Assembly (NCBI GenBank): GCA_021732415.1
Contig: JAKFVC010000016.1
Coordinates: 1 to 64,000 of the forward strand
DNA length: 64,000 nucleotides
Origin: Planctomycetaceae bacterium
GTDB taxonomy: Bacteria; Planctomycetota; Planctomycetia; Planctomycetales; Planctomycetaceae
Direction: 5' to 3'
Below are positions 10,805 through 46,487 of this stretch, piece by piece (position 1 is the stretch's first letter; every line of letters starts with the position of its first letter). A program made the position numbers and the translations under genes. Below the pieces are notes generated by a model. The model had not been told where the DNA came from. It did no database searches and saw nothing but the letters and a program-made list of their open reading frames with translations.

Positions 10805-12472
10805 TTACATTTCAACCCGAGGAAGTCGCAATCCCCCGTACTCTTTTCTGCGGATCCAGATCGGCGGTTCTGGCGTCGGCCAGAGAGTTCCCTCAACCAG
10901 CGGTCGGATCGCAGGCCATGAACGCAACTCTCGGTCATAGAGGACGACGGCCGGTGGATGGTCGCGAAAGTTTCTCAAGAGCTGGGCTTTGTCTTCAGCA
11001 CTCATCAGTGCCAATGAGTAACGATTGATCCACCAAAAATAGTTGGCATGTGGCCGCAATGCGCCGTATCCTGCGAATCCATCGAGCACTGTTTCATCCA
11101 TACTCACGAGCGAATTGACTCGTTCAATCAAGACCACCTGAGACCGATTCGACCACAGCCAGCTATTGGCATCGCGTGCGATCGCGTAATTCATCCCAAG
11201 AATTGCGAGTGGAAAAATGGACCAGCGAGCGCAATTAGTGGATTTGAACGGGCACAGGCTCCCAACAAAAAGTCCGATGGGCAGAATCAGTATGGAGCTG
11301 GCGGGCAGATTCCAATAGTTCCACAGGCTTCGCAGGTGGGACAAGGCTGATACCTGCGTGCCCTGCAATCCGTCGAACAACAATTTGCATTCGAGCCCGC
11401 AGGTCAGCAGGCCAATTCCCAGGATCGCCAGAGCCCATCCCCGGTTTGCGTTCTCGCGGATTCGATCCAGGCCGCTCGCCGCTGCTATTGTGAGTAATGG
11501 CAGCCACAGCAGCACGTATTGCGGATAAACGGCTTTCACCCAGACCAACGACAACAGACTGCCAGCCAGCGTCCCCATCACTACCAGCGGCAGAGCCTCG
11601 ATCTTTCGGTGAGCCAGGTCGCGGGTCACGACGGTCAAATACCAGCCTCCCGCAATCCAGAGCGCGAAGTCCGCAGAAATTGCCGGGCGGAGATGCTCCC
11701 AGCGTGCGCTTTGGATTGGTAGCCGTGCCAGGTGCAGGACCGTCCCGGCAAACATTTCATTCAGCGAGCCCAACGCTGCAAAGACGATTGCGAGCAGCGC
11801 CCAGAGAATGGCTCCGCCCAGCCCAATTCCCAGGAAAGGTCGCCATGTGACTCGCGCGTCGCGACAGCCCTGCACTAGTCTTACCACTACCAGTGTTACT
11901 GCCAACGAAACGACCGGCACAATGCCCTTCTGTGTGAATAGCGTGGCCAAACCACCCCAGAGACCAATTCCCAGCCAATCTCTGAATTTGATTGATTCAT
12001 ACCGGCGGACGGCGAAATGAATCATCAGTGTCAGACACAAACAGGACGGAACATCGGGCCGTAATTCGCTTCCCTTCAGCACGAACACACTACTCCAGGC
12101 CAACAGCAGACAGGCAGTCCAGGCGACGATCTCGCCCTTGAGACTTTTGGCGATCTGCCAGGTGACCGCGACCGTCGCCAGTGACATCACGCACATGATC
12201 GCGCGGCCCAGCCATAAGACTTTTAAGTCGGGGCCGAAGATCCAGAAGGCGGGTTGCAGCAAGTAATACAGTGCGGGGCTGTGGTGTTCGAAGAAGTCTC
12301 GATAAGGCAACATGCCGCGCCAGACGCAGAAGCCGGCGTGGAGATGTTCGAGCTCATCCGGGTCGATACCGCGCATGCGGATGGTGGCCAGTTCCATGAG
12401 AAACGGCACGATCAACAGCAAACCGGCGACTCCCTGCAAGGCACGGCTCATCGTATGTTTGTTCGCGTCCAA
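10805..12472 (-). CDS. GT-C fold glycosyltransferase (family 39-like) membrane protein
   Basis: 555-residue polytopic membrane protein. Near the N-terminus a long hydrophobic helix is followed by the first-loop motif RGIDPDELEHLHAGF, with the DxD/DE acidic pair typical of ArnT/PMT-like (GT39/GT83) transferases using lipid-linked sugars. Then come YRDFFEHHSPALYY and about ten hydrophobic segments. It probably transfers a polyprenyl-phosphate-linked sugar at the periplasmic face; acceptor and sugar are unknown. The start is TTG with AGGA nine bases upstream; an ATG eight codons in is the alternative. The next gene in the same direction upstream is an SGNH hydrolase, compatible with cell-surface glycan work. 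Confidence 0.8.
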   Translation of the reverse strand: MDANKHTMSRALQGVAGLLLIVPFLMELATIRMRGIDPDELEHLHAGFCVWRGMLPYRDFFEHHSPALYYLLQPAFWIFGPDLKVLWLGRAIMCVMSLATVAVTWQIAKSLKGEIVAWTACLLLAWSSVFVLKGSELRPDVPSCLCLTLMIHFAVRRYESIKFRDWLGIGLWGGLATLFTQKGIVPVVSLAVTLVVVRLVQGCRDARVTWRPFLGIGLGGAILWALLAIVFAALGSLNEMFAGTVLHLARLPIQSARWEHLRPAISADFALWIAGGWYLTVVTRDLAHRKIEALPLVVMGTLAGSLLSLVWVKAVYPQYVLLWLPLLTIAAASGLDRIRENANRGWALAILGIGLLTCGLECKLLFDGLQGTQVSALSHLRSLWNYWNLPASSILILPIGLFVGSLCPFKSTNCARWSIFPLAILGMNYAIARDANSWLWSNRSQVVLIERVNSLVSMDETVLDGFAGYGALRPHANYFWWINRYSLALMSAEDKAQLLRNFRDHPPAVVLYDRELRSWPAIRPLVEGTLWPTPEPPIWIRRKEYGGLRLPRVEM

Positions 12473-14613: not shown

Positions 14614-16330
14614 TCTGACACCCGTGATGATCTGGGCCGCCACCTACTTCCTCCATTCGACTCTGTTGCTGGGTGGCGTCTGGTGCTGGTTCCGCTGGAA
14701 AGAACCGCGCAGCCACGCGTTTCGCGAAACCGTCTGGAAGCTCGCTGCAGCCGGCGGCTTCGTGACGGCTTCGCTGCAGTTGGGATTTGGAATCGAGAGT
14801 CCGATCAACTCGTCGCTACGAACCGCTTGGACTGCACCGTCGCAGTCTTCAATAGACGAACCGGGTGCCACTGGCTCTGCCAGTGCCCGCAGTCTGGCGG
14901 CGTTCCCGAAAAACTCTCGTGGCATAAGTGAGCCATTGCGGGAACAACCCGTAGCGCGCAGAGAACGCTTCACGTTGACTCAGGTGCAGCCTGACTTCGA
15001 TGAACCGGTCGGTGCGAAATTCCTGATTTTTCCGGCCGATGAAGAAATTCCCGTGGCACGCCTGATCGCCACCAATGAAGAAGACGCTCTGGCACCACAG
15101 ACCGCTCCCGTGAGCGTGAATTCGTGGCCTGCAGTTGCGGCTCCGCAGATGGACAGTCGCCTGACGAAGTTCGCCACGAGACTCTCACAATCCTTGGTCG
15201 TCATTCTGGCGGCGTTTGGCGGGGCCATGGTCGCCCTAAGCGGGTGGGGACTATTCCGCCTGCTGTCCGAACATGCGGAATTTCGCCAGCGATTGGCGGG
15301 CTGCCGAATTGTGTCTCGAGGGACGGCCCGGGAAATCTTGAGCGAACTGCTGCAGCAGGCCCGGGTCCTGCGACCGGTGATGTTGCTGATGTCTGACGAT
15401 GATCTGGAACCGGGAGCGTGCGGCTGGTCGCGCTGGCAGATCGTATTGCCGTCCCGTGCCGAGGAAGATCTCTCACCCCAGGAATTGCGGGCCCTGCTCG
15501 CTCACGAACTGGCGCACCTGGTCCGCGGCGATCAATGGTGGCTGTTGCTGGGACGCTTGCTGGTGGTCTGCTTTGGCTGGCAGCCGCTCAATCGAGTCGC
15601 GTTGCGCGAATGGCAGCGCGCTTCAGAATACCTGTGTGATGCCTGGGCCATTCAGCGCGATGTGGAACGGATCTCCCTGGCGAGATGCCTGACGACGGTT
15701 GCCGAGTGGCGGCTGGTGGGCATGGCCACGATTGCCGGATTGGGGAGCGGGAATTCGTCCAATCTAACGCACCGCGTCGAACGGTTGATTGACGACGGTG
15801 AACTGGCAGATCCCTGGCAGCGCTATGGGCGGCAGCATCTGTTGTCGGCAGTGGGAACTCTGGTCGCGGTGGGCATGGTAGCCTATGCACCTGCCGCGAC
15901 AATCTCGTCTCCACTGATAGCGGCTCCCGCGAAACGCGTAGTGACGGCCACTGAGTCTGTACCGTCCAAGCGGGCGGAAACTCAACTGATATCGATGGAT
16001 CCGATCCCGGAGCCGGCGGTCTCTATAAATGTTCCAGTGCTGGAACTGCCCTCCGCATTCCAGGTGAAACTCATTCCGACTTTTGCCGAGGAACGCGTTG
16101 CTCCACGCAGTCCGCAACTCGTTATCGGGATGGAACTGATCCAAGCCATCCAACAGCAGGTGTCGGCCGACATGTTGGAATTGAATGCCGACCTGCAGGC
16201 CTTAGAAGCCGCGATATCTCAGTTGCCATCGCAGGGACAGCGTCCGTTGTGGCAACTTCAACTCCAGCGATTTCGTCAACGAGTGGCCAACATGCAGCGT
16301 CTGAGAGACGCCATGGTGGGGCCGTTGTAA
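14603..16330 (+). CDS. BlaR1-like M56 family membrane metallopeptidase
   Basis: 575-residue protein overlapping the repressor gene by 11 bases. N-terminal membrane helices (MIWAATYFLHSTLLLGGVWCW) are followed by a low-complexity linker, another helix near residues 195-215, and the zinc motif LLAHELAHLVRGDQWW at about residues 297-312 (HExxH). The M56 fold continues to WQRASEYLCDAWA, where the third zinc ligand is expected. A last hydrophobic segment (LSAVGTLVAVGMVAYAP) precedes a periplasmic C-terminus with a coiled region. No penicillin-binding sensor domain is present. The linker contains a genomic repeat unit at 14863-14886. Likely role: site-specific proteolysis of the neighbouring repressor. 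Confidence 0.88.
   Translation: MMSNLTPVMIWAATYFLHSTLLLGGVWCWFRWKEPRSHAFRETVWKLAAAGGFVTASLQLGFGIESPINSSLRTAWTAPSQSSIDEPGATGSASARSLAAFPKNSRGISEPLREQPVARRERFTLTQVQPDFDEPVGAKFLIFPADEEIPVARLIATNEEDALAPQTAPVSVNSWPAVAAPQMDSRLTKFATRLSQSLVVILAAFGGAMVALSGWGLFRLLSEHAEFRQRLAGCRIVSRGTAREILSELLQQARVLRPVMLLMSDDDLEPGACGWSRWQIVLPSRAEEDLSPQELRALLAHELAHLVRGDQWWLLLGRLLVVCFGWQPLNRVALREWQRASEYLCDAWAIQRDVERISLARCLTTVAEWRLVGMATIAGLGSGNSSNLTHRVERLIDDGELADPWQRYGRQHLLSAVGTLVAVGMVAYAPAATISSPLIAAPAKRVVTATESVPSKRAETQLISMDPIPEPAVSINVPVLELPSAFQVKLIPTFAEERVAPRSPQLVIGMELIQAIQQQVSADMLELNADLQALEAAISQLPSQGQRPLWQLQLQRFRQRVANMQRLRDAMVGPL
14863..14886 (+). repeat. Dispersed repeat unit inside the M56 gene
   Basis: The 24 bases gggtgccactggctctgccagtgc match, as reverse complement, the arm at 18582-18606 and, with one mismatch, the arm at 18529-18553. 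Here the unit is read in frame within the linker of the peptidase (around PGATGSASARS). Confidence 0.8.
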
Positions 16331-37334: not shown

Positions 37335-37408
37335 GTCTCCATAGCTCAATTGGATAGAGCGTCGGCCTCCGAAGCCGAAGGTTGCAGGTTCGACTCCTGC
37401 TGGGGACA
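37335..37408 (+). tRNA. tRNA-Arg(CCG)
   Basis: Complete cloverleaf of 74 bases. The acceptor GTCTCCA pairs with TGGGGAC, D-arm GCTC/GAGC, anticodon arm TCGGC-CTCCGAA-GCCGA with anticodon CCG, T-arm GCAGG-TTCGACT-CCTGC, discriminator A. CCA is not encoded. The 3' half borders the integrase gene, making it the probable attachment site of the prophage. Confidence 0.95.
37360..37408 (+). other. Probable prophage attachment site (left end) in the tRNA-Arg 3' half
   Basis: The integrase gene begins 24 bases from the tRNA end and reads toward it, as in tRNA-targeting prophages. The exact crossover core cannot be defined because the second copy lies outside the window; the anticodon-to-3'-end segment is the usual core. 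Confidence 0.6.
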
Positions 37409-37431
37409 CTGAAAAACATCAGGCCGGGTGA

Positions 37432-38610
37432 TTATCCGGTCTTGCGGAACGGCAAAACGTTAGGCGAACTGTTAGGTAACTGCTGCATCCCAGCGATTGT
37501 TGCGCGCTCGATGTCAGCCAGTGCCGTCGTAACATAATACGCCATCGTGGTCTGAATGGATTCATGACGCATCAACTGCTGCAACTGCTGCGGAGTGACG
37601 AGCGGAGCCCATCGGGTGCCGAACGTCCGGCGGAAGTCCTGCGCGCTGGCGTACTTTCTTTGCGGCTCCGTTTGGCCAGGCTTGGGACGATACTCCGCGA
37701 CGATAATTTTGGCTCGCTTGCCAATCCGCCGGAGGATGTCGCCGCAGGTATCAGCCCGCATGAACTCGGTTCGCATGCCGTCAATCCGCGGCCGGAAGAC
37801 TCGACCGGTTCGCCGGCCGGAGGGGATCCGCAGCAAGAAGTCGCCAAAGTCTGGAGTGATCGGCAACAGGCGGGCCTTTGTGCTTTTGTCTTCGTTGGCC
37901 TCGATCCTCAGCCGCGGCATGTCTCCGGACAGGTCGACGCTGATTCCGTCGAAGGTCGGTTCCCAAGTCAGCCGAATCGCCTCTTCGAGTCTGAGTCCCG
38001 ACAGCCACAGGCCTTGAATCAGCTCGGTGAACGATTCTTGATCGGCTTCCTTTTTGACCTCTTCCGCCATCGCCACCAGGTACGATTTGTATTCAGCCTC
38101 GGTCAAAGCCCTGCCCTTCGACTTGTTGATACGTTTGGGCATGGCAAAGTGGGGAACGCTCGCGATCAGATCGATTTTATCCGCCCAGTTCAGGCAGGCG
38201 CGGAGCGAAGACAGGTGGCCCTTGATTGTGGCCTCAGCCTGCCCTTTCTCTCGCAGCATCGCCTGAAAACGGCTGATCATGTCCGCATCGATCAAGCTGG
38301 CATATTGCGGGGCGATGAATTTATCGAGCCACTGACGCACCGATCGAAACTTGTATTGGGTCTTCCTGGCTCGCGAACTGAGCACTTCCGCCAGGTATCG
38401 ATCGGCCACATCACCCCAAGGGGCGTTCCAGGCGTTTCGGTAGGTCCCTTCGTTGAGTTCCGATTCCAGCTTGCCGGCAAACCGCTCCGCTTCTCTTCGA
38501 ACTGCGGTTCCCGTGCTGCGGGTTTTCTTCCGGCCCGTGATGGGATCCTTCCACTGAGCCTCCCAGCAGGTGCGGCCGGCTCGCATCATCAAGTAGACGG
38601 TGACTTTCAT
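37432..38610 (-). CDS. int: Tyrosine-type site-specific integrase
   Basis: 392-residue tyrosine recombinase. The N-terminal arm-binding part (TCWEAQWKDPITGRKKTRST) is followed by a SAM-like core-binding domain (about 75-160) and the catalytic domain: Arg in LWLSGLRLEEAIRL, Arg in AQDFRRTFGTRWA, His in LMRHESIQTTMAYY, and the nucleophile Tyr in the same block. The residue that is usually His in the H-x-x-R box reads as Gln (AQDFRR), a tolerated variation in some integrases. It ends 24 bases from tRNA-Arg(CCG), which it probably uses as attB. It lies 15 bases downstream of an excisionase-like gene. Confidence 0.93.
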   Translation of the reverse strand: MKVTVYLMMRAGRTCWEAQWKDPITGRKKTRSTGTAVRREAERFAGKLESELNEGTYRNAWNAPWGDVADRYLAEVLSSRARKTQYKFRSVRQWLDKFIAPQYASLIDADMISRFQAMLREKGQAEATIKGHLSSLRACLNWADKIDLIASVPHFAMPKRINKSKGRALTEAEYKSYLVAMAEEVKKEADQESFTELIQGLWLSGLRLEEAIRLTWEPTFDGISVDLSGDMPRLRIEANEDKSTKARLLPITPDFGDFLLRIPSGRRTGRVFRPRIDGMRTEFMRADTCGDILRRIGKRAKIIVAEYRPKPGQTEPQRKYASAQDFRRTFGTRWAPLVTPQQLQQLMRHESIQTTMAYYVTTALADIERATIAGMQQLPNSSPNVLPFRKTG

Positions 38611-40252: not shown

Positions 40253-42397
40253 ATGAAGATTGATATCCACACACACACGAAGAAATGCAAGTCCGGTGAC
40301 GCGCACACGAGAGCGATAACCCCAAAGGATTTCCATGAAACAATCCTTTCAACCGAGGTTCGGATCGTCGCAATCACCAACCACAATGTGTTCGATTACC
40401 AACAGTTCGCCGAGATATGCTCGTTGATCGGGACTGACGCACAGGTTTGGCCTGGAGTTGAGCTGGACATCCTCGACGGTGGCTCCCGGGCGCATCTGCT
40501 TGTGATGGTGTGTCCGTCAAAGGCAATTGAATTTTCAGCTATCGTGGATCAGCTAACGCGGGGTTCCACACCCGATCTCTTTACCTCAACGATTGAGGAC
40601 GTGCTAAAGGCGTTTGATGAGTTGGGGCCGCTGTATGTAGCGCACTATCGTCAAAAGAAGCCCGATCTTTCAGACGGAGCAATTCAGAAGTTGATCGATG
40701 GAACGGCCAACCCGCCGCGCGTCATCAAAGAGGTTTCCAATGCTATTTCAGCAGGAATATACATATCGCACGGACACGCTTCCATATATGGCTCTGACGT
40801 TCATAACTGGGCAACCTACGCGGAAAAGTCGAGCGAGCTTCCGGACCTTCGTCTCCCGGTTGAAAGCTTCGAGCACTTTTGTTTGCTGCTACATAAAGAC
40901 CCGAATACGATCAACACAGCATTGAACCAGAAGACGCACGAGGACCTAACGCTTACCCCGTTCGGCGATAGTTCAACACTTAACATTCGTGTGTTTAATG
41001 ATATAAATGTTGTTTTCGGCCCCAAGGGGACGGGGAAATCGTGCATACTGAAAGCAATCGCCAGACACTACAAATCGAATGGGATTGATGTGTCCGTGTA
41101 TGAGTCGGCGAGTGACAAACTGGACAAGATCTTCAACATTAAAGGCGAGGGGCTGAGTTTAAATCTCTCAACATTTAAGATTGATTATTGCCAAAACGAG
41201 ATTGATGCTTTGAGGAACGCCAGAGAGAGTGATATCACAAGTATACTAAAATACGTGGCGCACTTGCAGGCTCAGCAAACAAACAAGAATGCAAAGAGTA
41301 TTCTGATCACAAGTATTGAACGTGAAGAGGAAAGCACGCCTAAACGGCTGTTCGACGAATTCTTCAATGCGAAGGAAGTCACTGACGATTTCCGGCAATT
41401 CTTTCAAGAGAGTAAGGCTACTAGGGATGTGCTCGCACCGGATGAACTCGAACTATTGGGTGGACTCTTAGGCACATTAAGTGAGAGATTGTTCGGACGC
41501 ATTGAAACAACTTATGCGCACTGGAAGGAAATATGTCTGCTAAATACGGCCATTGAACTTTTCCGAAATGAAGTCGGAAGAAAAACAGGTACGCCCACGA
41601 AGCCTACAACTACCGGCTTTCGCGACTACGCGCTGAATCGCATTGCGATTGAAATCAATGTGACAAAAATCTTGGCGAATATAGATATGCAGATTCCAGT
41701 TCAGTCCGAGATTGTGGGTAGCCTCGGAAAAGACAAAGGACAGCTAACGTTTCAAACGGAATACAAGTTTCAGAACGGAAATATCACTGACGGAAGTCTC
41801 TTGCCATTGGGTGCCATTAACAAGACGCCACAGAAGTTGTTTGTGACTGAACTGCGAAGAGTTTTTAAGCGGGTATATTCAGACGATTTGTTCGCATCTA
41901 TCGCAGCCCTTAATGCAATAGAAGAAGTAGACAAGATACCGACGATCCTCGAATTAGTTCTTTTTAAGAGATACTTTGCTCTGAATGGAGCGCCCTACGC
42001 GCCATCGAGCGGTGAGGGTTCAATGGTTATGTTGCAGAAGGAACTCGAAACTGAAAAGGATGTTTACATTTTGGATGAACCGGAACGCAGTTTAGGCAAC
42101 GAGTACATTAGCGACGTAATAGTCCCCTTGATCAAGGAGCGGGCGAAGCTCGGCAAAAAGATATTCATCTCGACACACGACGCTAATATTGCAGTTCGCA
42201 CACTGCCCTACAGTTCGATTTACCGTACTTACAATCACTTAGGGTACACAACATATATTGGCAACCCATTTTCCAATCATTTGATCAATTCAATTGATGC
42301 CAATGATCGGCGCGACTGGAAAACAGTTAGTATGACAACCTTGGAGGGTGGCAAAGAGGCTTTTGGAGAGCGAGGAACGATATATGGAAATAGTTAA
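40253..42397 (+). CDS. PHP-domain/ABC-type ATPase fusion (TrlF-like)
   Basis: 714 residues. The N-terminal PHP phosphoesterase domain (about 1-190) shows the metal-binding motifs MKIDIHTHT, AITNHNVFDY, WPGVELDI, YVAHYR and ISHGHASIYGSDVHNW. A P-loop follows at about 256-263 (GPKGTGKS). After a helical insert comes an SMC/ABC-like half: signature SSGEGSMVML (about 584-593), Walker B VYILDEPERSL (about 604-614) and H-loop ISTHDAN. This matches the family named TrlF-type AAA-like ATPase. Such proteins couple nucleotide-dependent dimerisation to a hydrolase. It is the first gene of a four-gene plus-strand unit, overlapping the next by 14 bases. Biological role unproven; nucleic-acid cleavage by the PHP domain is inference. 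Confidence 0.82.
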   Translation: MKIDIHTHTKKCKSGDAHTRAITPKDFHETILSTEVRIVAITNHNVFDYQQFAEICSLIGTDAQVWPGVELDILDGGSRAHLLVMVCPSKAIEFSAIVDQLTRGSTPDLFTSTIEDVLKAFDELGPLYVAHYRQKKPDLSDGAIQKLIDGTANPPRVIKEVSNAISAGIYISHGHASIYGSDVHNWATYAEKSSELPDLRLPVESFEHFCLLLHKDPNTINTALNQKTHEDLTLTPFGDSSTLNIRVFNDINVVFGPKGTGKSCILKAIARHYKSNGIDVSVYESASDKLDKIFNIKGEGLSLNLSTFKIDYCQNEIDALRNARESDITSILKYVAHLQAQQTNKNAKSILITSIEREEESTPKRLFDEFFNAKEVTDDFRQFFQESKATRDVLAPDELELLGGLLGTLSERLFGRIETTYAHWKEICLLNTAIELFRNEVGRKTGTPTKPTTTGFRDYALNRIAIEINVTKILANIDMQIPVQSEIVGSLGKDKGQLTFQTEYKFQNGNITDGSLLPLGAINKTPQKLFVTELRRVFKRVYSDDLFASIAALNAIEEVDKIPTILELVLFKRYFALNGAPYAPSSGEGSMVMLQKELETEKDVYILDEPERSLGNEYISDVIVPLIKERAKLGKKIFISTHDANIAVRTLPYSSIYRTYNHLGYTTYIGNPFSNHLINSIDANDRRDWKTVSMTTLEGGKEAFGERGTIYGNS

Positions 42398-42674
42398 GGC
42401 GAGTGTTATACAAGATCAGGGCAAGCATTTCATCAAAATCGATCCGGAAGGTCTTGGTATCACCATTCCGATGTCTGAAGACAAGCCAAACGAAATCAAG
42501 AGTGCTTTCAATAAGATAATAGCACGACTTAAGCTCGGTGAGTTTCAGATCGAACTTGAGGACATTGGTCCGGATCTGTTTTCTCAAGTCGCGAAAGAGT
42601 ATATTTTACAGTTGAATCGTGAAATCGAGGAGGTACATGGGGAGATGTTGCAATATCAGTTGACCGCCAATTGA
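42384..42674 (+). CDS. Small acidic protein of the PHP-ATPase operon
   Basis: 96 residues from ATG 42384, with GAGG upstream, overlapping the ATPase end by 14 bases in another frame. Sequence pattern: beta-like N-terminal half (VKASVIQDQGKHFIKIDPEG), then helices (KSAFNKIIARLKLGEFQIEL, EYILQLNREIEEVHGEML). No known family recognised. The tight overlap points to translational coupling and complex formation with the ATPase. It could be an adaptor, a regulator or an immunity subunit. Confidence 0.7.
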   Translation: MEIVKASVIQDQGKHFIKIDPEGLGITIPMSEDKPNEIKSAFNKIIARLKLGEFQIELEDIGPDLFSQVAKEYILQLNREIEEVHGEMLQYQLTAN

Positions 42675-42698
42675 ATGTCTTAAGACGTTAGAACCAAC

Positions 42699-43634
42699 AT
42701 GATTGAGCCTCGTCTAAAACACGTTGGCGCCGATGCGATCTTAGCAGAGCGAGCCAAAATGCTCGGTCTTTATGATTCGGCAAAGGCCCAAGCAGCGGAT
42801 GATCCGGTTAAGGTTGAACACGGAAACGTAGCGGAGGAGATCTTTCGCAATTACCTCAGGCGGTTCTTACCGAAGAAGTACGGGGTCGCGAAAGGACATA
42901 TTCTTACTCGTGATCTAACATACGCTGGACCGTTAGAGGAATGGGATGTAATCATTTACGACATTCTGGAATCGCCGATTCTTTATGTCCGTGATGACGC
43001 AGGGGGAACGCCGAGGCTTGGGATTCCGGCTCAGTATGTCAAAGCTGTGGTTGAGGTGAAGGCAACGCTTACGCAAAGTAGCGTCGAAAGCGTCACACAG
43101 AAATTGTTGAAGCTTGAGCAGTTCAAGCGAATTCCGGGTAACGACCGAGAACGTCGCGCGGATTTTTTTCCATGGGGCTTTTTTTCATGGGCTGTTTTCT
43201 TCGAAACTGCAACCAGAAACAGAGCTGACTATATTAAATGCCTTAACAAGCTGCAGCCGTTGGGTATCCATAAATTCACACAGTTTGAAGGGGCGATGGT
43301 CCTCCGTAGTCAAAACGATCCACACGCTTCTGGCGTTATTTCGTCAATGATGACTGGCCAGGAACGACCAAGTATTTTGTTCGAGGACGAAAGATTCGAG
43401 GCAAGTGATCCCGAATTGTATAAGTCGTCACCGGAGTTGAACGCTATGTTTAGCTTCACGGTCTCTTCTGGTTTCGGGATCAACGAATTCTCGGCCGAAA
43501 TGATGAATCTCGTTTCGCGTTTAAATGATGGTCCGATGCGGGATATAAGTGGTGGTAAAACGGATCTTGGCGGGTTCGGCCACGAGCCTGAAGGGATTGA
43601 GCGTCGCTCTTTGTGGCCTCGCCTGACTTTTTGA
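42699..43634 (+). CDS. DUF6602-like protein with PD-(D/E)XK-like spacing
   Basis: 311 residues. About residues 39-125 contain HGNVAEEIFRNYLRRFLPKK, then EEWDVIIYD, then KAVVEVKATLT. This pattern (an early Glu, an Asp in a D-V-I-I-Y-D strand, then E-V-K) is that of DUF6602 and resembles the E...D...ExK arrangement of PD-(D/E)XK nucleases, with candidate residues E46/E47, D83, E119 and K121. The remainder (130-311) is unassigned. It starts 24 bases after the small protein. The family is usually annotated as unknown; nuclease activity is my inference from residue spacing. Confidence 0.75.
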   Translation: MIEPRLKHVGADAILAERAKMLGLYDSAKAQAADDPVKVEHGNVAEEIFRNYLRRFLPKKYGVAKGHILTRDLTYAGPLEEWDVIIYDILESPILYVRDDAGGTPRLGIPAQYVKAVVEVKATLTQSSVESVTQKLLKLEQFKRIPGNDRERRADFFPWGFFSWAVFFETATRNRADYIKCLNKLQPLGIHKFTQFEGAMVLRSQNDPHASGVISSMMTGQERPSILFEDERFEASDPELYKSSPELNAMFSFTVSSGFGINEFSAEMMNLVSRLNDGPMRDISGGKTDLGGFGHEPEGIERRSLWPRLTF

Positions 43635-43750
43635 AAGCCGTTTCGACGCGGAAGGAGAAGAGTGTCAGCAATCGCGACAGAATTCAGTTCATGACACCGT
43701 TGGTCGTGCAAATGAGACAGGCCTGAGCGACTCAGAGGCGCTAAGACGAT

Positions 43751-44632
43751 ATGTACCTCCTGGACAATACAGGGAATTTGGTTGACTCCGAGTTCAGCCT
43801 CGATGTACTCGACGGATCTCCTTGTGTGATTGTCGAAAGCAGTGGCGGAGCCAGCCCGCGCCGAGAAGTGGCACGCAGAAATCCGGACTACAACAAGCTA
43901 GTAAGCCTGTTGATTCACCGGTTGTCGGTCGCTGACATCCAAATAGAAAAGATTATTCTTGATTCGGCGAAGGTCGCGAAGATTCCAGTTGCCGACCGAG
44001 TCGTGGTTCTGAATCGACCATATCCAATTGATATAAGTGCCATAGATGTCGAAGAGTTGAGACTTGAAATTGGGCGCAAGACTGCTGGGATGTTTCAAGA
44101 CTCGAACGCGAAGTCTGGCGGGAATTCGCAAAAGCGACTTTGCATCTGCCTCGTTCAAGCTGTAATGCCCATTCAACTTCTGGTCGCACCACACAGTCGA
44201 ATGTCGGCCGATGACATTCCTGACAATTCGCCAGGGCTCACTGAAACGGAGAGAGCGTATCTACGTACCGCGCGTATCGGACAAGGCAGATTTCGAACAA
44301 ACCTTCTTGAAGCATACCGGAAGACCTGTCCGGTTACAGGTATTTTACATCCCGAACTGCTCGTCGCATCGCACATTAAACCATGGAATGCGTGTACGAA
44401 TCTCGAACGGTTGGATCCAAATAATGGCATTTTGCTGTCGGCCTTGATTGATCGGCTGTTCGATCGCGGGCTGATCACTTTCAATAACGACGGGAGTATC
44501 CTGCCGTCGCCTGTGCTGTGCGCTGCGGATAGGGAGAAGGCTCAGCTTCACAATGCAATTAAGTTTGCACTATCGAGTAAGAGTCAGCGATTCATGGAAT
44601 ATCATCGTGTCTTTCAGTTCAAGCGAGAGTAA
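43751..44632 (+). CDS. HNH endonuclease (HNH_2-type) with unknown N-terminal domain
   Basis: 293 residues. The C-terminal third has the HNH_2 pattern: GQGRFRTNLLEAYRKTCPVT, LLVASHIKPWNACTN, LDPNNGILLSALIDRLFDRG, LITFNNDGSI. The His of ASHIKPW, Asn of DPNNG and Asp of IDRLFDRG are the expected catalytic/metal residues. The N-terminal domain (about 1-150; DVLDGSPCVIVESSGG, RRNPDYNKLVSLLIHRLSV) is of a kind found ahead of HNH modules in other bacterial proteins and may recognise DNA, but I cannot name it. It lies 116 bases after the DUF6602 gene on the same strand. It probably cleaves DNA; the trigger and any modification dependence are unknown. Confidence 0.82.
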   Translation: MYLLDNTGNLVDSEFSLDVLDGSPCVIVESSGGASPRREVARRNPDYNKLVSLLIHRLSVADIQIEKIILDSAKVAKIPVADRVVVLNRPYPIDISAIDVEELRLEIGRKTAGMFQDSNAKSGGNSQKRLCICLVQAVMPIQLLVAPHSRMSADDIPDNSPGLTETERAYLRTARIGQGRFRTNLLEAYRKTCPVTGILHPELLVASHIKPWNACTNLERLDPNNGILLSALIDRLFDRGLITFNNDGSILPSPVLCAADREKAQLHNAIKFALSSKSQRFMEYHRVFQFKRE

Positions 44633-44811: not shown

Positions 44812-45186
44812 CTATGAACGTGCTTGTGAAACAAGCTTTGAAATTATCGATTTCATATGCGGAGACGACAGAATGCTGGACAGATATGCTTCAAAGTCTG
44901 CCGGCGTATGGAACGATTCCCATACTCCAGTGGTCGTGCTGACGTCCACTGGATAGATATCAATGGAGTGTCGGACTACCAATACTTGATAACGATAATT
45001 GTTCAGTTCTGGAACTTTAATATAAAACTTGTAACAAAAGTCCGGCAGTTGGTCCTTAATCTGCACTACTTCTGCATGCAGAACCCCACCTGTCGCCTGA
45101 AACAACGGTGGTCCCTGCTCAGTTAATATAGATTTCGGAGTCCGGATTACTGGTAGGCCACCCAGATCACCCCAAAGGCTGGTCAT
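44812..45186 (-). CDS. Hypothetical protein coupled to the EEP-family gene
   Basis: 124 residues; its ATG directly follows the TGA stop of the upstream endonuclease/exonuclease/phosphatase gene, implying coupling. Likely alpha/beta: FCYKFYIKVPELNNYRYQVL, VVRHSIDIYPVD, then a helical C-terminus (DFEAYLSSILSS). No family recognised. It could be an accessory or inhibitor of the adjacent enzyme. A terminator follows. Confidence 0.6.
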   Translation of the reverse strand: MTSLWGDLGGLPVIRTPKSILTEQGPPLFQATGGVLHAEVVQIKDQLPDFCYKFYIKVPELNNYRYQVLVVRHSIDIYPVDVSTTTGVWESFHTPADFEAYLSSILSSPHMKSIISKLVSQARS

Positions 45187-46011
45187 TCAAAACGCTCCTA
45201 ACAAATCCAATGTGAGAATAATAGGTAGGTGATCTGACGCTTGCGTCTTAACCGCCCGTCCTCGCCGATTAACAAGCGATTTGCCATTTATCTCCGTTAC
45301 AACTTGGACGCTTTCGTGTCGCATATACGCGAGCAGTGAAGGACGGACAAGCACTTGGTCAAAGATATTCCAGAAGTAATTTACTTCAGTGCCCGAATTG
45401 TAATAATACGTGCCAGCTGCTCTTCCAAGTAGATCTCCAAAGTAAGACCACATTGGATTGTAAAAGAACTGTCGATGGCGGCCTGAAACCTTGCGTGATC
45501 CACTTGAGGCAATTCGCCTGTCCATAACCGCGTGTAAGCCCTCGGAACCCACAACTCCAGCCTCAAACGGGTTCATGTTTAGGTCGCCGATCAGTATAGT
45601 TCGAGAATGGCCGACTTGCTGCTCAGCTTTTGCAATTTCATTGGCCAGGCGGGTGCTCGCGAGAATCTGATCTTCCGTCTTCTTCCAAAGTTTGCTGTTT
45701 AAGTGAACGGAAACAACCAAGATCTTATCAGCACCCGGTGGGCGATACTGCCGCATCGCAACGTCGAATTCATCCAAGATCAGGTCGGTGTCTTCGTCTT
45801 GAATACGGGAACAAATTGTAAGTCGTTCTGAATTTCCAGGATCGGGAAAATAAACTCTGTCTTCCTCATGGTTTAGAGAATGGAGAAGATCTTGCTGGGG
45901 AACGAGACACTCTGCAAGTATCAGTATATCTGCATCACACTTTCGTGATAATTCCACGATCAGCTTGGGTGAACGCATCTTGTGCACATTCCAAAATGCG
46001 ATAACTGTCAT
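45187..46011 (-). CDS. Endonuclease/exonuclease/phosphatase family protein
   Basis: 274 residues from ATG 46011 (a GTG at 46062 would add 17 residues and overlaps the upstream stop as TAGTG). The fold of the DNase I/ExoIII superfamily is shown by AFWNVHK at the start (Asn), LILAECL (metal-binding Glu), VVSVHLN, LIGDLNMNPFE (Asp and Asn), a WNIFDQVLV strand and the terminal ASDHLPIILTL (Asp-His). All catalytic motifs are present. The substrate may be DNA, RNA or a phosphoester. It is transcribed toward the HNH gene, making the cargo island convergent. Confidence 0.83.
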   Translation of the reverse strand: MTVIAFWNVHKMRSPKLIVELSRKCDADILILAECLVPQQDLLHSLNHEEDRVYFPDPGNSERLTICSRIQDEDTDLILDEFDVAMRQYRPPGADKILVVSVHLNSKLWKKTEDQILASTRLANEIAKAEQQVGHSRTILIGDLNMNPFEAGVVGSEGLHAVMDRRIASSGSRKVSGRHRQFFYNPMWSYFGDLLGRAAGTYYYNSGTEVNYFWNIFDQVLVRPSLLAYMRHESVQVVTEINGKSLVNRRGRAVKTQASDHLPIILTLDLLGAF

Positions 46012-46061
46012 TTGTGCTCGTGTATTGGATTCAGTTGTGGGTGTCGACTTGTGAATGACCA

Positions 46062-46487
46062 CTATAACTCAACGTATGTCGTGGCGTCAAAGAGCATTCG
46101 CACTAGTGGTCTAGGGGCAATAGTACGGGTTGCCCTTCCCGTTGCGTTATTACGCTCCCGACTTCTTACGAGGCCGACCTGGTCGCTTGGCATCAAGCCG
46201 TGTGAATGGCTGACGATTTCAGGCACTGCACTGGCCTGTTTCGCGTCGTGAATCGAACGTTCATCAGTTGTCACGCTCGACGACGCTCGACGACGCTCGA
46301 TGATCTCCGATGGATCCAGCTTGTCGAGGGAGATCTCTTCGCAAAGCCACCAGCCGTCCTCCTGAGCCACGAATCTCGATTCCTTGAGCCATTCGATCAA
46401 CTCGGGCATCTCGGTGTAATCCCGGGCGTGGGCAAGATTTTCCAGGATGCGATCTAGGTCGAGTCGGACAAGTAACGGCAGCGCCAC
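46062..46487 (-). CDS. Hypothetical prophage protein with a repeat-altered C-terminus
   Basis: 141 residues from a GTG start with AGAGGAA upstream. The first 70 residues look like a compact helical domain (RLDLDRILENLAHARDYTEM, LIEWLKESRFVAQEDGWWL). The tail after residue about 65 is polar and poorly structured. It begins at a 10-base tandem repeat (46271-46300, cgacgctcga three times); loss of one copy would end the protein just after RRRA. The stop overlaps the alternative GTG of the EEP gene. Function unknown. Confidence 0.55.
   Translation of the reverse strand: MALPLLVRLDLDRILENLAHARDYTEMPELIEWLKESRFVAQEDGWWLCEEISLDKLDPSEIIERRRASSSVTTDERSIHDAKQASAVPEIVSHSHGLMPSDQVGLVRSRERNNATGRATRTIAPRPLVRMLFDATTYVEL
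46271..46300 (-). repeat. 10-bp tandem repeat, three copies, inside a gene
   Basis: The plus-strand unit cgacgctcga is present at 46281-46290 and 46291-46300, with a near-copy (tcacgctcga) at 46271-46280. As the unit is not a multiple of three, copy-number change shifts the reading frame of the 141-residue gene. Confidence 0.75.

Follow-up and report, generated by a model that had tools for sequence, protein, structure and literature searches.

Two genes in the cargo region of a prophage, encoding a PHP-ATPase protein (gene A) and a 96-aa partner (gene B), make up on our best model a unit of their own, and the two genes that follow them, encoding a DUF6602 protein and an HNH_2 protein, are independent cargo. 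The window analysed here (the whole stretch of DNA, 64,000 nucleotides) had been described in a preliminary description as holding a four-gene anti-phage system. We consider it reasonably likely that A and B constitute a two-gene anti-phage module in which the ATPase part of A and protein B would gate a PHP nuclease, with the DUF6602 and HNH proteins acting independently. A speculative four-gene system is thereby cut down to a two-gene module that is open to direct test. The features discussed are collected in Table 1.

Table 1. Positions of the prophage features in the window, and further loci that carry genes A and B.
Feature	Position	Strand	Remarks
tRNA-Arg(CCG)	37335-37409		
attL, 49-bp exact copy of the tRNA-Arg 3' end	37362-37410	+	
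Tyrosine integrase of the prophage	37432-38610	-	family matches
A: PHP phosphoesterase domain and ABC/SMC-type ATPase	40253-42397	+	714 aa; core gene 1
B: 96-aa partner of A	42384-42674	+	core gene 2
DUF6602 protein, NucC-like PD-(D/E)XK core	42699-43634	+	311 aa; separate cargo, possible accessory
HNH_2 protein, VcaM4I-like C-terminal nuclease domain	43751-44632	+	293 aa; separate cargo
attR, same 49-bp repeat	contig 81207-81255		past window end
A+B locus L002			Pseudomonadota MAG
A+B locus L003			Photobacterium damselae plasmid
A+B locus G113/L011/L080			second genome of the window's phylum
A+B locus L012			viral contig

The four genes are AT-rich cargo adjoining the integrase of a prophage. 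The element is 43.8 kb long, is bounded by att repeats at the tRNA-Arg gene and extends past the window end; attR was absent inside the window and the second copy of the repeat was located further along the contig. Genes for a portal, terminase, head protease, tape measure, virion proteins, primase/helicase and sigma factor lie between the repeats. Since the integrase, the att repeats and the virion genes identify a prophage at tRNA-Arg, the four genes sit in its integrase-proximal cargo. The GC content is 44-50% across 40-46 kb vs 55-60% in the surroundings, which bears out the AT-richer island reported in the preliminary description, and its account of the layout is likewise accurate: four plus-strand ORFs in the order given in Table 1, with an overlap of 14 nt between A and B and gaps of 24 nt (B to DUF6602) and 116 nt (DUF6602 to HNH_2). 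In L104, the prophage has a DNA methyltransferase gene (phrog_363) at 11131-12171 and a gene for an RNA polymerase sigma factor (phrog_351) at 14874-15632. Directly past the HNH gene, the minus strand carries three abutting or overlapping ORFs (44812-46487) of 141, 291 and 124 aa, maybe another cargo unit; the 291-aa product belongs to the endonuclease/exonuclease/phosphatase family (PF03372, 5.9e-6) and the 141-aa and 124-aa proteins gave no family match.

The domains first assigned to the larger proteins (PHP with an ABC/SMC-type ATPase, DUF6602 and HNH_2) stand, with profile matches and motifs in agreement. The N-terminus of A is a PHP domain that matches the NCBIfam TrlF family (7.7e-23 for the match as a whole, strongest over residues 2-98) and holds the motifs DxHxHT, TNHN, PGxE, H81, H131 and GSD. 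A complete ABC-type ATPase is also present, with Walker A GPKGTGKS, signature SSGE, Walker B DEPE and H-loop STHD. These motifs are kept in the relatives of the window clade, where the signature reads (S/N)GE. PHP domains usually read TDH; the A members have TNH in all copies, and the copy from Photobacterium has Q in place of the ligand-like H184. The AlphaFold model of A was poor (pLDDT 48) and not usable, and the fold of A was dropped from further consideration.

Protein B could be assigned to no family. Its AlphaFold model is confident (pLDDT 88) with elements in the order b-b-b-a-b-a, and comparison with solved folds returned nothing at E<=0.001 in Foldseek and a top VIA-align Z of 4.4, so no fold is claimed for it. 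The ribosome-binding sequence of B sits inside the codons of the conserved GERG motif of A in all five A+B loci, and in the most likely model B is a dedicated partner of A that is made by translational coupling.

The recurrence of the pair is the evidence on which its definition as a unit rests. Relatives of A with 48-62% identity were found at the four further loci listed in Table 1, and in 5/5 intact loci, the window included, B lies directly downstream of A with an overlap of exactly 14 nt. Pairing in every intact locus, the constant overlap and searches with B alone, which led back solely to two of the loci already found with A (viral contig and Photobacterium plasmid), are strong evidence that A and B form an obligate pair. 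Broken A relatives on an Enterococcus plasmid and a Staphylococcus plasmid retain the B gene, with an 11-nt overlap. On the Staphylococcus plasmid (L005, 5228-6396), the A remnant matches only the C-terminal 131 residues, B is intact and an IS6-family transposase gene is found just upstream of the remnant; A may decay while B persists. Gene A was present in 2/294 genomes of the window's phylum, and the phage record collection held no relative of A. In other loci the pair has Gabija gajA/gajB, type II and type IIG restriction-modification systems and PDC-S26 as neighbors, and such defence genes support an immune role, though they do not amount to proof. In the second genome of the phylum (L080, G113:C3, 7673-11749), the pair was read by eye to lie between tail-like genes and a tyrosine-recombinase-like ORF; in that genome, too, it may belong to the cargo of a prophage.

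The third protein matches DUF6602 (7e-17), and its proposed PD-(D/E)XK nuclease character is upheld by a match to the NucC core (6uxf, 2.1e-5 across residues 39-141; PADLOC NucC, 2.8e-10). The PD-(D/E)XK core of NucC is intact in the DUF6602 protein, and the likeness extends over about 100 of its 311 residues with the remainder unmatched. No cyclase family match was obtained among the flanking cargo proteins tested. DUF6602 scored above its cut-off in 24/294 genomes of the window's phylum, and no paper mentioning it was retrieved in a literature search. We fetched 32 DUF6602 neighborhoods, reaching as far as 6 kb to either side where the contig was long enough, and A, B and any protein like the HNH protein of the window were absent from 32/32. 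As part of the two-gene explanation as a whole, and with the same better-than-even confidence, we regard the DUF6602 nuclease as an independent defence-type gene in the same cargo zone.

The fourth protein carries an HNH_2 domain (1e-13), and its C-terminal 135 residues (158-292) align with VcaM4I (6yex, 5.5e-22), a modified-cytosine-dependent EVE-HNH endonuclease. The protein shares the nuclease domain of VcaM4I; residues 1-157 gave no family match and the EVE/PUA sensor domain was not detected. It is probably an endonuclease that acts on modified DNA. Relatives of the HNH protein occur in 28/149 related genomes, where they are scattered and the similarity is confined to the HNH domain. A viral-contig scan returned no match for the HNH protein or for the DUF6602 protein.

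How far the unit extends past B is the point on which the preliminary description and our analysis diverge. The DUF6602 gene starts 24 nt past B on the same strand, so co-transcription and cooperation are possible in this prophage, and its nuclease core is intact; both observations speak for a three-gene unit without the HNH gene, in which detection of infection by A and B would activate the NucC-like DUF6602 nuclease as their second effector. A DUF6602 gene lying downstream of the pair in the Pseudomonadota MAG, at a distance of 2.2 kb, points the same way. That gene, however, stands behind three unrelated genes and is a distant relative of the window copy (2.6e-4), which is far closer to a DUF6602 gene in its own genome (5.8e-29; L065 5902-6822, G000:C46), the nearest relative found, where a 377-aa ORF follows and no A or B was found within 6 kb. 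The pairs on the Photobacterium plasmid, on the viral contig and in the second genome of the phylum are without an adjacent DUF6602 gene, and that genome is without one anywhere. We therefore regard the three-gene unit as unlikely. A machine of all four genes, with an ATPase sensor, an adaptor and two nucleases, has the co-directional packing and the small gaps in its favor, but no second example of the set was found in the collections searched, in which only A and B recur together, and no protein like the HNH protein of the window was detected near the other A+B loci or within 6 kb of the 32 DUF6602 loci fetched. Both downstream genes, earlier placed in one system with A, occur mostly apart from the pair in other genomes, and the scattered HNH relatives resemble the window protein in one domain only. 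With the DUF6602 and HNH genes as separate defence-type cargo, the four-gene machine is unsupported; the four-gene operon was rejected as the unit for want of a second example, the other A+B loci having neither a DUF6602 nor an HNH_2 gene next to the pair, and we hold it to be highly improbable that the four proteins work as one. What survives of the earlier proposal is defence-type cargo of a prophage, consisting of a PHP-ATPase with its small, conserved partner and, beside them, two proteins that resemble nucleases.

Another consideration is whether the pair serves defence at all. A and B could instead serve mobile elements in nucleic-acid processing or in stabilisation, for example as a module that resembles a toxin-antitoxin system. 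Where an A+B locus is known in detail, it belongs to a prophage, a plasmid or a viral contig, A is similar to the TrlF family, for which we know of no role, and PHP domains are also found in housekeeping polymerases and phosphatases, all of which would fit such a module. On the other hand, A is rare and patchy in the window's phylum, defence genes adjoin the pair in several loci and PADLOC lists the layout as a defence candidate (PDC-M49), and a non-defence role appears rather unlikely as a result. We consider it quite improbable that the pair is a distinct PHP-ATPase defence subtype, with a partner unrelated to PDC-M49B, that has recruited DUF6602 as a second effector in this prophage.

For the two-gene module, we infer an anti-phage function along with a cue, a substrate and a role for B. 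In a healthy lysogen, the ATPase/B part would keep the PHP domain of A inactive. A superinfecting phage could provide the cue through a change in nucleotide pools, through DNA ends or through one of its proteins, upon which the PHP domain would be released, nucleic acid cleaved and the infection stopped, with B as a putative regulator or targeting subunit of A. The location in a prophage suggests superinfection exclusion. The template for this scheme is Ppl of E. coli, reported to be a 3'-5' ssDNA exonuclease in which bound NTPs inhibit the PHP and NTPase domains, an inhibition that is relieved when infection depletes the NTP pool and 3'-OH ends appear (PMC12904381). Since the match of A to Ppl is weak (18 bits, ~65 ATPase residues), the mechanism is drawn by analogy of architecture.

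Several known systems share parts of this design. Ppl is a single gene of ~880 aa with PHP and NTPase domains that is experimentally anti-phage without a B partner; A shares the joining of PHP to ATPase, and scores 18 bits against a Ppl cut-off of 1000, over residues 585-649 of the ATPase only, which places it outside Ppl. The TrlF family model (NF045780, 944 positions) aligns with A in three stretches that cover the PHP region and ATPase segments, at 81 bits vs the curated cut-off of 350, and A thus falls short of a whole-protein TrlF assignment. As in Septu (PtuAB), an ATPase gene has an HNH gene nearby in the window, but A differs by its PHP domain, PtuA matches are limited to the ATPase region of A, and the HNH gene is absent from the other A+B loci, so the pair was not assigned to Septu.

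The closest counterpart is PDC-M49 of PADLOC, and the earlier label of an undescribed system was too strong in that the layout of A and B is already catalogued there, although B itself is not a PDC-M49B match. The PDCs originate in guilt-by-embedding work and are described as mostly unvalidated (PMC12988326), and a literature search returned no paper naming PDC-M49. PDC-M49 pairs are known from plasmids of Enterococcus, Rhizobium and Staphylococcus, and their genes overlap by 20 nt or more vs 14 nt in the window pair. The proteins are of similar size (A ~675 aa and B ~97 aa in PDC-M49, 714 and 96 aa in the window), and two overlapping genes, domain order and motifs are common to both. The PDC-M49A model matches A of the window (2e-30, in partial stretches) and A of the Photobacterium plasmid (1.8e-36, over nearly full length). 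At about 22% identity, A and PDC-M49A share their metal-site and ATPase motifs and have 54 invariant positions, among them H6, H8, H44, E70, H81, H131, residues of the Walker and signature motifs and a C-terminal LExG...R...Y motif. The PDC-M49B models match neither B of the window nor B of four relatives; a search for PDC-M49B in relatives gave no match anywhere, the controls included, and therefore carries no information. B was rejected as a PDC-M49B homologue, with no model match and an hhalign (profile-profile) probability of 0.2%. Because B is not recognised, the pair is probably, as far as can be judged from sequence, a divergent variant of the catalogued PDC-M49 kind and not a strict member. 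The pair would thus represent a second, sequence-distinct lineage of this candidate, with the same PHP and ATPase motifs but a different small partner, and the role of the small partner would emerge from comparing both lineages.
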